DNA of 64,000 nucleotides from Enteroscipio rubneri. GTDB taxonomy: Bacteria; Actinomycetota; Coriobacteriia; Coriobacteriales; Eggerthellaceae. This document shows positions 27,431-31,619 of the stretch, piece after piece. Each line of letters begins with the position of its first letter. The first letter of the stretch is position 1. The notes below the pieces were generated by a model that did no database searches, was not told the origin of the DNA, and worked only from the letters and a program-made list of their open reading frames with translations. Where the stretch lies: contig NZ_PPEK01000004.1 in the NCBI RefSeq assembly GCF_002899715.1, forward strand, positions 1 through 64,000, in the 5' to 3' direction. Both the position numbers and the translations under genes were made by a program.

Positions 27431-27546
27431 TTTGTATTATGATTAAGACAGCGAATACGGAGGCAGAGGGTGCACGCGCATCGAGCTGCGCCAGAACGGG
27501 CGCGGTTGAGCACGCGGCGGTTGGACGAAATCAGAGGAAGGCAGCC

Positions 27547-28425
27547 ATGCAGGATTTTCGCGTCGAGACGTTCTTGACGGTGTGTCGAACGATGAACTAC
27601 ACGCGGGCCGCCAAAGCGCTCAACATCACGCAGCCCGCCGTCTCGCAGCATATCGCCCACTTGGAGAAGGCGTACGGTGCGCGGCTGTTCGACTACCGCG
27701 GCAAGCGGCTCACGTTGACCGAGGCCGGCGAGCTTGTGCGTTCGACGTTGTCCACCATGGACCATGACGAGCGCCTGCTGCGCGAGAGGGTTGCTGCCGC
27801 GGTTTCGGGCGCTCGCATCGACATGAGCGTGGGGATGACCCTCACGGCCGGCGAGTATCTGGTGGCTGCGCCCCTTGCTGACTACCTGGCGAAACGCCCC
27901 GACATCCGCGCGACCGTGCGCTCGGGCGGCACACGCGAGTTACTGGCACTGCTCGAGGCAGGGGAGATCGATTGTGCGTTCGTCGAGGGAATGTTCGATC
28001 GGAGCGCCTACGAATGCGACGTCTATCGGCGGGAACGGCTTGTATGCGTGTGTGCGGCGGAGCATGTGCTGACGTGCGGAGCGTACTGCATCGAGGATCT
28101 GCTGTCGGAGCATCTGCTGGTGCGCGAACCGGGATCGGGCACGCGCGCGGTGCTTGAGCATGCGCTGGCTGCACGGAATTTGTCCCTTGAGGGCTTTCGG
28201 CAGACAAGCATGGTCGAAAGCCTCGACGTCATCAAGATCTTCGCTGCGCGCGGCTTGGGAATCGCGTTTCTCTACGAGGCGGCGGTTGCGCGCGAACTCG
28301 AAGCCGGCAGCTTGCGAGTCGTTCCGCTCGAGGGCTTTCGCGTGGAGCACGACATCTCGTTCATCCGCCTGAAGAACAGCGCGTTCGAGGCCGAATTCCG
28401 CCGTCTCTTCGACGAGGTTCGCTGA
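27547..28425 (+). CDS. LysR-family regulator divergent from TDT transporter
   Basis: A 292-residue LysR-type activator. The N-terminal winged helix-turn-helix is textbook (FLTVCRTMNYTRAAKALNIT then QPAVSQHIAHLEKAYGARLF), followed by a two-lobed effector-binding domain resembling CysB/CysL-like regulators. AGGAAG precedes the ATG. It is transcribed away from the TDT transporter across an AT-rich palindromic spacer, so it probably controls that transporter and itself. The effector cannot be read; if the transporter exports sulfite or dicarboxylates, those are candidates (inference). Confidence 0.92.
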   Translation: MQDFRVETFLTVCRTMNYTRAAKALNITQPAVSQHIAHLEKAYGARLFDYRGKRLTLTEAGELVRSTLSTMDHDERLLRERVAAAVSGARIDMSVGMTLTAGEYLVAAPLADYLAKRPDIRATVRSGGTRELLALLEAGEIDCAFVEGMFDRSAYECDVYRRERLVCVCAAEHVLTCGAYCIEDLLSEHLLVREPGSGTRAVLEHALAARNLSLEGFRQTSMVESLDVIKIFAARGLGIAFLYEAAVARELEAGSLRVVPLEGFRVEHDISFIRLKNSAFEAEFRRLFDEVR

Positions 28426-28490
28426 AGCGCTGCCGCTCTCGGGGAAGCGATGCGATGCTCCACATGGAACAGGCGTGCTGAAACACCCGA

Positions 28491-28508
28491 TTGTTTCACG
28501 TGAAACAA
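28491..28508. promoter_or_regulatory. parS site 1 (ParB-binding centromere)
   Basis: The perfect 16-bp consensus TGTTTCACGTGAAACA lies at 28492-28507 and the palindrome extends to 18 bp. ParB/Spo0J nucleates here to load condensin and segregate the chromosome. A degenerate relative (TGCTCCACATGGAACA, 12 of 16) sits 20 bp to the left at 28456-28471. It lies in the gap between the LysR gene and the reductase; parA and parB are not in the window. Confidence 0.92.
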
Positions 28509-28537: not shown

Positions 28538-28568
28538 TTGACTTGGAGTGCGCTCCAGGAATTATGAT
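28538..28568 (+). promoter_or_regulatory. MerR-type promoter of aldo/keto reductase
   Basis: TTGACT (28538-28543) and TATGAT (28563-28568) are 19 bp apart, too long for normal polymerase binding, and the spacer carries a dyad CTTGGAG-TGCG-CTCCAGG (28542-28559). A stretched spacer with a central dyad is the hallmark of MerR-family activators, which twist DNA to realign the hexamers. No MerR gene is in the window, so the activator would act in trans. Confidence 0.65.
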
Positions 28569-28598: not shown

Positions 28599-29725
28599 GT
28601 GCGATCAGATTTTCAGAACATAGCGAAGCTGGGTTTCGGGTGCATGCGGTTGCCGCTGCTCGACGCGAACGACCAGCAGAGCATCGACCTCGAGCAGTTT
28701 ACGCAGATGGTGGATGCGTTCATCGAGGGTGGCGGAACGTACTTCGATACCGCTTTCGTCTACCACGAAGGCGCGTCCGAGAAGGCGCTCGGCGAGGCGT
28801 TGGTCAAGCGCTATCCGCGTGATGCGTATACGGTGGCGACGAAGTGCCTGGCATGGGCGAGTCCCCATGCGGAGGAGGCGAAGAGCAACCTCGGCACATC
28901 GCTTGAGCGCATGGGACTCGACTACGTCGACTTCTATCTGCTGCACAACGTAGGCGGCGAGCGCACCGCCAAGTTCGACGAGTACGGCATGTGGGATTTT
29001 GCGCGACAGAAGAAGGAGGAGGGCCTCATCAGGAACGTCGGTTTCTCGATGCACGACGGAGCCGACACGCTCGACGAGCTGCTCGCCGTTCATCCGGATA
29101 TGGATTTCGTACAGTTGCAGGTGAACTATCTGGACTGGGACGATCCGGTGATCGAAGCGCGTCGCTGCATGGAAGTAGCGCAAAGGCACAACGTTCCGGT
29201 AGTGATTATGGAACCTGCTCGCGGAGGACGGCTCGTCGAGCTGCCCGATCGCGTGGCTGAGGTGCTGCGCGCGGCGAACCCGGAAGCGAGCTTGGCCTCG
29301 TGGGCGTACCGCTTCTGCTACAACATGCCGAACGTGCTCACGGTGCTTGCCGGCATGTCTACGCTCGAGCAGGTGCGACAAAACGTGGCCGACTACCGTG
29401 CGAGCCGCCCCTTCTCCCCCGATGAGCAGCGGGCGTTCGATCAGGCGGCCGAGATTCTGCGCGGTATGGCGCCATCCCGTGTACGAATTGCCGCTACTGT
29501 GTGAAGGACTGCCCGCAGAGCGTGGCTATCCCCGCTATTCTAGGCCTGCTCAACCTCGAGCTCATGACCGAAAACCGCTCGTTCGCGAAGAGCCTGTACT
29601 CTTGGCAGGCGGTACCCGGTCGCGCTTCCGATTGCAGCGCCTGCGGCGCGTGCGAGGCCATGTGCCCGCAGGGCATCGATATCATCCGCCAGCTGGAGGT
29701 TGCCGCCGAGCACTTCGAAGGATAG
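28599..29725 (+). pseudogene. Aldo/keto reductase with C-terminal ferredoxin domain, frameshifted
   Basis: Two overlapping frames together encode one COG1453-type protein. Frame 1 (GTG 28599, GAGGAG upstream, to TGA 29502-29504) holds the TIM-barrel aldo/keto reductase (LGFGCMRLPL, DTAFVYHEG, DFYLLHN, RNVGFSMHD). Frame 2, open through 29725, continues with IPCTNCRYCVKDCPQ and CSACGACEAMCPQG, the two [4Fe-4S] motifs that normally finish this family. The switch falls between about 29463 and 29480 (near ATGGCGCC) and is explained by loss of one base. As written, the product lacks its ferredoxin domain and ends in the aberrant tail RVRIAATV. It may be a true pseudogene or a sequencing error. No slippery heptamer for programmed frameshifting is seen. 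Confidence 0.88.
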
Positions 29726-29774
29726 CGCCACGACGCGATCGCTCCGTCCGGGCAGCAGCAAGATACGCGCGCTC

Positions 29775-29921
29775 GGGGTTCGGCTCCCGCTGCCGCAACC
29801 GCTGGGCATGCGTTCGGATGTGACTTGGCCTCCGCCGCAACGGGACATGCGCGCTCTGGTGGGGGTTCGGTTTTTGCCGCAACCGCCGGGCGGGGTTCGT
29901 TTCTTGCTGCAACCGCTGGGC
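29775..29921. repeat. Imperfect 30-33-bp repeats in the gap before the anion transporter
   Basis: Three related units sharing GGGGTTCG...TGC(C/T)GCAACCGC(T/C)GGGC lie at 29775-29807, 29862-29891 and 29892-29921; the last two are exactly adjacent. The 310-bp gap (29726-30035) also repeats CTCGTGCGCGGCC at 29927 and 29971. No gene is recognised here; short frames across the repeats look like by-products. Confidence 0.6.
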
Positions 29922-30035: not shown

Positions 30036-31619
30036 ATGGTGGCACAGCAAGACGGAACGCTCCCGATGACGAACGACGCTCGGGGGCGTTTTCGCGTGCG
30101 CGCGCCCATGGACTCGCTCATCCGATTTGTCCGTACTCGCATGGTGCTCATCGTGTCGGCGGCGGCTGCGCTCATCACCATGGTGTTCGTGCCGTTCGAC
30201 GAGGCCTATCTTGGCTACTTCGACGTCAAAACGCTTGCGTGTCTGTTTGGCATCCTGGCTGTGGTGGGTGCGCTGCGCGGCATCGGGCTCTTCGAGCATG
30301 CCGCGCGCCTCGTGGTGGCGCGTTTCGCGACGTGCCGCGCGGCGGTGACCGCGCTCGTGGGAGCCACGCTTGCGCTGTCGATGTTCGCCACCAACGACAT
30401 GGCCCTCATCATGATGCTGCCGCTGGCGGCAGCAACGCTCATCAAGGCTGGCTGGGAGCGTGCGCTGCCGTTCGCGTTCATCATGCAGAACCTCGCGGCC
30501 AATCTGGGCGGTATGATCCTGCCCTTCGGCAACCCTCAAAACCTGTACCTCTACGAGCGCTTCTCTATCCCGCTGGGTGACTTCCTGGCTGTGATGGCGC
30601 TGCCCTTCGGTGTATCGGTTGCGCTCATCGCGCTCTGTTGCGCGCTATTCCTGAAGCCCGATCCGCCGCAAGCTCCAGAGAAGAAAGCGATCGGAGAACA
30701 AGCGAAAGCGAGCCCTTCGGAAGCGAACCGATCGGAAGCGAACCCCGCGGAAGCGAGGCGAGAAGCGAAAGCGAGCAACGCGGAGGCGCACCCCTCGGAA
30801 GCAAAGCGCCGACCGGAAGGGAATCCCTCAGAAGGGAACCCCTCGGAAGCGAATCGCGCAGAAGCGAAGATCCGCGCTGTGCCATCGTATCGAACGAATG
30901 TTTCACGTGAAACATTCGTTTCCAAACAGGGGAGGGCGAGCGCGCACCCCGTCACCCGGCCGCACCCCGTCGCCCAACCGCACCCAGCCACCCATCCGCA
31001 GCCTGTCGGCGGCCGTCTTGCGTCCGCCGACCGCTCCGATCCTGACGCGCGTCTGCGCATCACCGCCCGTGAGCGCCGGCGGGTCGTCGTCTACTTCTCG
31101 CTGCTTGCGCTCGTCATTGCTTCGGTGTTTCGACTCGTGCCCTATCCGGTGGCGCTTGCGGCCGTTGTGCTTGTGCTTGCGGTGTTCGACCGTCGCGCGC
31201 TACGGACTGTGGACTACGGGCTGCTGCTCACCTTCGCATGCTTTTTTGTGTTTGCCGGCAACATGGCGCGCATACCCGTGATAGAAGGCCTGCTTTCAGG
31301 ACTCATGGGACAAAGCGCGCTTCTGGCGAGCGTGGGTACGAGCCAGATTATCAGCAACGTGCCCGCCGCTGTGCTGCTCTCGCACTTCGCCGGCAGCTAC
31401 GAGGCGTTGCTCGTGGGCGTGAACATTGGCGGCGCGGGCACGCTCGTTGCCTCGCTTGCCAGTCTCATCACGTTCAACCAGTACCGCACCGTGCTCGCGT
31501 CGTTTCCGCACCGTCCCGAACTTGCCCGCAATACTTCGGGCGCCTTTCTTGCGCGATTCACGGCATACAACGTCGCGTTCCTTGCAGTGCTGCTGCTCGT
31601 CTGTTGGCCGCTTGTCTAA
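30036..31619 (+). CDS. SLC13/ArsB-like anion transporter with repeat-rich linker containing parS
   Basis: About 527 residues of ion-transporter (IT) superfamily type. The N-half (TRMVLIVSAAAALITMVFV through NMGGMILPFGNPQN-like AANLGGMILPFGNPQN) and the C-half (SQIISNVPAAVLLSHFAG, GVNIGGAGTLVASLASL) are the two pseudo-symmetric membrane halves with their asparagine/proline hairpins. Substrate could be arsenite, dicarboxylates or Na+/H+. Between the halves is an unusual ~125-residue cytoplasmic linker: first SEANP-like repeats, then NVSRETFV, which is parS read in frame, then HPV-type repeats. The start is uncertain: no Shine-Dalgarno fits 30036 well, and ATGs at 30066 and 30108 are alternatives. 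Confidence 0.8.
   Translation: MVAQQDGTLPMTNDARGRFRVRAPMDSLIRFVRTRMVLIVSAAAALITMVFVPFDEAYLGYFDVKTLACLFGILAVVGALRGIGLFEHAARLVVARFATCRAAVTALVGATLALSMFATNDMALIMMLPLAAATLIKAGWERALPFAFIMQNLAANLGGMILPFGNPQNLYLYERFSIPLGDFLAVMALPFGVSVALIALCCALFLKPDPPQAPEKKAIGEQAKASPSEANRSEANPAEARREAKASNAEAHPSEAKRRPEGNPSEGNPSEANRAEAKIRAVPSYRTNVSRETFVSKQGRASAHPVTRPHPVAQPHPATHPQPVGGRLASADRSDPDARLRITARERRRVVVYFSLLALVIASVFRLVPYPVALAAVVLVLAVFDRRALRTVDYGLLLTFACFFVFAGNMARIPVIEGLLSGLMGQSALLASVGTSQIISNVPAAVLLSHFAGSYEALLVGVNIGGAGTLVASLASLITFNQYRTVLASFPHRPELARNTSGAFLARFTAYNVAFLAVLLLVCWPLV
30700..30870 (+). repeat. Degenerate 15-bp tandem repeats in transporter linker (SEANP-type)
   Basis: About ten imperfect copies of a unit close to TCGGAAGCGAACCCG, read in frame as SEANP/SEANR/AEAK/PEGNP. 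Codons vary while the Ser-Glu-Ala pattern holds, so selection or slippage has kept the frame. Confidence 0.7.
30893..30920. promoter_or_regulatory. parS site 2, inside the transporter coding sequence
   Basis: The perfect 16-bp parS TGTTTCACGTGAAACA lies at 30899-30914, within a 28-bp perfect palindrome (30893-30920). Read in the transporter frame it encodes VSRET. It is 2.4 kb from parS site 1 and lies between two blocks of tandem repeats. Confidence 0.92.
30945..31007 (+). repeat. 12-18-bp tandem repeats in transporter linker (HPV-type)
   Basis: CACCCCGTC-like units read in frame as HPVTRP, HPVAQP, HPATHP and QPV. Together with the upstream SEANP block they frame parS site 2. Confidence 0.65.

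Follow-up and report, generated by a model that had tools for sequence, protein, structure and literature searches.

Described Systems and the Present Locus

The parS site is a short bacterial centromere site, normally present in few copies beside the replication origin. Origin-clustered sets are found, for example, in Bacillus subtilis, in Corynebacterium glutamicum (ten sites), and in Streptomyces coelicolor (about 20-23 sites). It is an open question why, in most bacteria, parS sites are few and gathered at the origin (PMC7333895); the highest number given in the papers found is ~20-23 (PMC7333895, PMC10197239). SMC traffic in Bacillus is disturbed when parS sites are added or relocated (PMC8357415), and Caulobacter tolerates an additional parS cluster best only when it is placed within ~500 kb around its own cluster (PMC5815017).

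The stretch analyzed here (the window) comprises 64,000 nucleotides of contig C4 of the Enteroscipio rubneri draft genome. It contains two perfect parS copies, both of which are best read as members of a massively multiplied chromosomal parS set. Compared with the origin-clustered ParABS systems, this set relies on the same 16-mer, has parAB at its densest, near-origin cluster, and is accompanied by a canonical ParB and by SMC, but it differs by its 48-148 copies, its chromosome-wide gradient, the location of some copies in genes, and a flank motif at dispersed sites. The Noc/NBS system of Bacillus also combines a protein of the ParB-family class with numerous 16-bp palindromes that are scattered and become scarcest far from the origin. 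Here, however, the site is parS and not NBS, the ParB residues are of the parS type, and no separate Noc-type protein was identified. The ParB of Pseudomonas aeruginosa likewise reaches hundreds of non-origin places, by binding short half sites (PMC10419367), whereas the dispersed sites described here, to which binding is predicted, are full perfect palindromes. Finally, REP and other short dispersed palindromes are also intergenic, sometimes paired, and present in many copies, but in this case the core is exactly a known protein site, degenerate copies are few, and the gradient is centred on the origin.

The sequences show a very large, strictly conserved, and origin-graded parS set, together with parAB and SMC. 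The preferred reading, with a probability of about 0.68, is a ParABS system whose parS sites have been massively multiplied and extend over the whole chromosome, which would offer many loading points for ParB and probably for SMC.

The Two parS Sites of the Window

The first site, at 28492-28507 (no strand assigned, as for the other site features below), is intergenic, between a LysR-family regulator gene and an aldo/keto reductase gene. A sequence-only reading of the window had presented it as a perfect parS consensus, and it is an exact match to TGTTTCACGTGAAACA. The assignment of this 16-mer to parS is well supported by its presence around the genome's canonical parAB genes and by the parS-type recognition residues of the ParB they encode. 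The same reading had described a degenerate neighbour. The sequence TGCTCCACATGGAACA at 28456-28471, with a start-to-start offset of 36 bp from the first site, does match parS at 12/16 positions (four mismatches), but its status as a degenerate copy is only possible, a 12/16 match within 120 bp being expected at ~1.3% of random positions. Spacings of 33-36 and 44-48 bp are common between intact parS pairs in these genomes, and the idea of a decayed partner of the first site is at most suggestive.

The second site, at 30899-30914, was overlooked by the earlier reader. It is also an exact match and lies inside a gene for a CitMHS-type transporter (30036-31619, + strand; Pfam PF03600, E 7e-36), in frame as VSRET; it translates as TNVSRETFV within a low-complexity loop of the protein. 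The site is the core of an extended dispersed-class element, CGAACGAA-parS-TTCG (30891-30918), whose flank motif is enriched only at dispersed sites, and a 28-bp perfect palindrome spans 30893-30920 around it. The 28-mer has 100% matches at many places in related genomes, across genera. In one of them (G068), the extended element lies at the same place in the orthologous transporter gene.

At up to three mismatches, the window holds these two sites, both perfect, against a mean of 0.08 in shuffled windows. A search of the window for known RNA families and tRNAs returned none.

Copy Number in the Genome and in Relatives

The draft genome (2,826,736 bases in 43 contigs) carries 48 perfect parS copies, far above the background frequency that the sequence-only reading had named as a refutation; base composition predicts ~0.0001 copies genome-wide. 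The reversed sequence, used as a control in the same genome, has 0 exact copies. When up to three mismatches are allowed, 61 sites are obtained (13 with one to three mismatches), against five for the reversed control. Intact parS, therefore, far outnumber near-copies, which is the opposite of what is expected for a freely decaying repeat. A chance origin of the copies was ruled out by the shuffled windows, the base-composition expectation, and the reversed control.

Among 138 Eggerthellaceae genomes, most genera have 0-8 perfect parS and a few have ~9-23. The counts are much higher in the genus of the window (48 in the own genome and 103 in a closed congener, G001), in genus g6 (108), in the Eggerthella genus (109-148), in genus g37, comprising Rubneribacter and relatives (63-122), in Gordonibacter (25-79), and in genera g9 and g24, with records named Adlercreutzia or Enterorhabdus (39-126). 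Genera g3, g35, and g36 have between 6 and 41. In the rest of the class, the sampled genomes outside the family reach a maximum of four. When the phylum was sampled evenly, counts outside the family were mostly 0-4, and the maximum of 21 was found in a genus of large genomes, which we take to be Streptomyces.

High-copy Eggerthellaceae have several-fold more parS than the highest published numbers found, with a gradient layout and many low-copy relatives. A literature search for parS in Eggerthella or Coriobacteriia, with many subscription papers outside its reach, found none. In a ParB tree, high-copy genera appear at several places among low-copy ones, with a weak backbone that makes one gain followed by losses and several gains indistinguishable. 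In genus g3 (G011:C1:98500-99500), four parS lie within a tandem repeat of ~76 bp, unlike in Eggerthella, and perhaps correspond to an independent increase.

Layout along the Chromosome

Two closed genomes were used to follow the sites along the chromosome, that of the congener G001 (3,123,671 bp, dnaA at ~0.6 kb; 102 of its 103 sites placed) and that of G054, from the Eggerthella genus (3,632,260 bp, dnaA at ~2 kb). The sites cluster at the single canonical parAB locus and, in both genomes, are found all round the chromosome, not confined to the origin region, thinning outwards from dnaA. In G001, there are 16 parS per 100 kb at distances of up to 50 kb from the origin and 1-2 per 100 kb at distances above 800 kb (Kolmogorov–Smirnov, KS, p ~2e-10, and ~2e-6 after dropping the inner 20 kb). 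The right arm of G054, on which its gradient is based, shows 24, 22, 13, 7, 4.3, and 0.9 parS per 100 kb going outwards; 39 further sites were counted on the left arm, with positions unlisted. The sites are also clustered locally, 74% of those in G001 having another parS at most 3 kb away, compared with 19% under a smoothed null.

The earlier reader had considered either an origin-proximal window or dispersed use of parS by the species. The second is borne out by the 48 genome-wide copies and by the sites all around the chromosomes of closed relatives. The first holds only in part: in closed relatives, the distance between the orthologous stretches and parB is ~0.2-0.35 Mb, which places them far beyond the origin cluster.

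ParB, ParA, and SMC

A single chromosomal ParB is encoded in the genome, with parA and parB at ~72.6-74.6 kb of contig C11, inside the densest parS cluster of the genome and adjoined by rsmG, jag, yidC, and rnpA (neighbours named by eye from their sequences). As the sequence-only reading had stated, parB is absent from the window: the genome has three ParB_N genes, on contigs C11, C12, and C21. Two further ParA-ParB pairs, at ~80.6 kb of C12 and ~6.4 kb of C21, resemble pairs carried by plasmids or by integrated or integrative elements.

The nearest solved relatives of the chromosomal ParB, by sequence, are the Caulobacter ParB and other chromosomal ParBs. Alignment and comparison with the Caulobacter protein show a GERR CTP motif and the RxxG recognition residues. 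R173 and G201 are absolutely conserved in parS-binding ParBs (PMC7383237), and both are kept here. An altered recognition helix in high-copy genera was considered and is not seen in the alignment. The ParBs of low-copy relatives have a nearly identical recognition region, and the protein, therefore, offers no explanation for the multiplied parS.

These features bear on a Noc-like use, in which ParB on sites thinning toward the terminus would mark the nucleoid and keep division off. Many dispersed sites, fewest far from the origin, match the description of Noc sites, which are least concentrated at mid-cell (PMC8429893). Nevertheless, the site is parS and the protein has R173/G201, not the Q/R of Noc. 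It also scores below the cut-off of the Noc model (243.7 vs 315 bits), and its N-terminus is of the usual GLGRGL type of ParB, with no membrane helix by eye. A Noc-like role is considered improbable.

A full-length SMC is found in the own genome and in high-copy relatives, and more generally in nearly all genomes, although contig ends interrupt it in some drafts; in G020, a low-copy draft, the SMC matches were only weak. Loss of SMC as a reason for tolerating many parS was, thus, rejected.

Gene Context and Retention between Species

About 80% of parS are intergenic. In three genomes, 45 of the 224 sites are inside genes called with a codon-model gene caller, several of these host genes being likely spurious, compared with ~80-84% of bases. 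The intergenic sites occupy gaps of every orientation, i.e., divergent, convergent, and tandem. The recognizable host genes, named by eye from sequence, are IorA (indolepyruvate oxidoreductase), HypF, HypD, and, in G054, ParB. In recognizable genes, parS reads VSRET in frame, in loops that are variable in length and sequence between species, and the transporter site of the window belongs with these. The G054 parB gene (3625563-3626613) itself holds an in-frame parS, which encodes NVSRET in the linker that follows the N-terminus.

A perfect parS is present within the bracketed orthologous interval of G001 for 30 of the 48 own sites; among the 35 that lie away from the origin cluster, the figure is 18. 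Where the DNA of the two genomes aligns at parS loci, it is ~65-85% identical, and many parS are kept at orthologous places though the surrounding gap sequence fails to align. In a control, parS-free gaps of the same loci scored 10 of 24, against 18 of 20 for real sites (Fisher p 0.0014), this control being biased upward, since the stretches taken from G001 were all parS-bearing.

Flanking Sequences and Palindromes

Two classes of site can be distinguished by their flanks. Those of origin-cluster parS are AT-rich and share no longer sequence. Dispersed parS have T[TC][CT]GT[TA][CT] on at least one side in 92 of 175 cases, giving the consensus TTCGTTCG, compared with 1 of 49 origin-cluster sites and 0 of 175 random positions. 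This extension is often one-sided. It is unpolarised relative to replication (17:16 and 16:18), and a directional element was, thus, rejected.

The TTCGTTCG flank is also a point against the preferred reading, as it may reflect a different reader or a mechanism of spread unrelated to ParB. In one alternative explanation, the sites would be a selfish or passively spreading palindromic repeat with parS as its core by coincidence or capture, its copies multiplying by duplication or transposition and many of them being tolerated but not used. The one-sided extension at dispersed sites only would fit such an element, as would the 28-bp sequence that is exact at many places across genera, the copies of genus g3 in a ~76-bp repeat, the many close parS pairs, and two copies in one G054 gap that have a long identical upstream stretch in common. 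However, intact sites far outnumber near-copies, they follow an origin-centred gradient, they are kept at orthologous places between species, and in recognizable genes they stay in frame. This explanation is considered unlikely, although it comes first among the alternatives that could still hold, followed by the Noc-like role and then by a role as hairpins.

Family-wide, parS lies within longer perfect palindromes far above chance, with arms that differ from site to site: arms of at least 4 bp were found at 58/175, 77/147, and 74/220 sites in three sets, whereas such arms occur at 0.5% of random positions. T-rich tails are found at 13-23% of the three sets (25 of the 175 dispersed sites), compared with 2.6%. 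Some of these palindromes, followed by T runs, resemble intrinsic terminators. In the hairpin explanation, the palindromes would function in RNA or in single strands, forming the stems of terminators or hairpins, with parS co-opted as a stem. Yet the sites are in divergent as well as convergent and tandem gaps, and in frame within genes; most have no T tail, and RNA pairing would not preserve one exact 16-mer. Because of the gap orientations and the lack of T tails, a terminator role for most sites was rejected, and the hairpin role in general has only a very slim chance of being correct.

A Proposed Multiplied ParABS System

With a multiplied ParABS system as the preferred reading, the following mechanism can be proposed. 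The ParB CTPase would nucleate at each parS and slide outwards as a clamp, and the origin-proximal part of the chromosome would have numerous stretches loaded with ParB where other bacteria have a single patch. Such stretches would act as a spread-out centromere, and also as many SMC-ScpAB loading points. The TTCGTTCG extension would mark a distinct, dispersed class of parS. Because extra distant parS disturb SMC traffic or segregation in Bacillus and Caulobacter (PMC8357415, PMC5815017), the benefit of multiplication is not obvious, and an arrangement that other bacteria avoid must be either tolerated or put to use in these lineages.

A more speculative extension of this mechanism, possible but doubtful, is that the point centromere has become chromosome-wide in some Eggerthellaceae. 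ParB at 50-150 selected sites would then be a general organiser, parS plus TTCGTTCG would be read by ParB and a second factor, and SMC would work from many loop-extrusion origins without the collisions that harm other bacteria.

High-copy bacteria constitute a natural test of a segregation machinery facing many loading points. With many graded sites and low-copy relatives, collision avoidance, centromere size, and parS spread are directly testable, and cultured species for such tests include Eggerthella lenta and Gordonibacter.

The Gap Holding the First Site

In three genomes of the Eggerthella genus, and likewise in Candidatus Rubneribacter avistercoris, the gap corresponding to that around 28492-28507 contains at least one parS. 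The Gordonibacter, Paraeggerthella, and G021 genomes that were checked have no parS in it. In G056, a decayed parS element, GAATGCTTCGCGTGAGGCATTCG, lies beside an intact copy.

In the window, the gap is bordered on the left by the LysR-family gene (27439-28425, + strand; Pfam PF03466 and PF00126) and on the right by the aldo/keto reductase gene (28599-29504, + strand; Pfam PF00248), whose open reading frame is listed from 28548 and for which 28599 is the likely start, picked by eye from the sequence. A MerR-type promoter, also read by eye, is found at 28538-28568, 30 bp downstream of the first parS; it consists of TTGACT, a palindrome GGAGTGCGCTCC within a 19-bp spacer, and TATGAT. Its TTGACTTGGAG...GCGCTC part recurs ahead of the orthologous gene in relatives. 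The aldo/keto reductase gene (region 28599-29823) is apparently frameshifted at ~29.48 kb, where an Fe-S-type C-terminus resumes in another frame. Relatives align straight across this point, with a length differing by one base, and the frameshift may be a sequencing error or the mark of a pseudogene.
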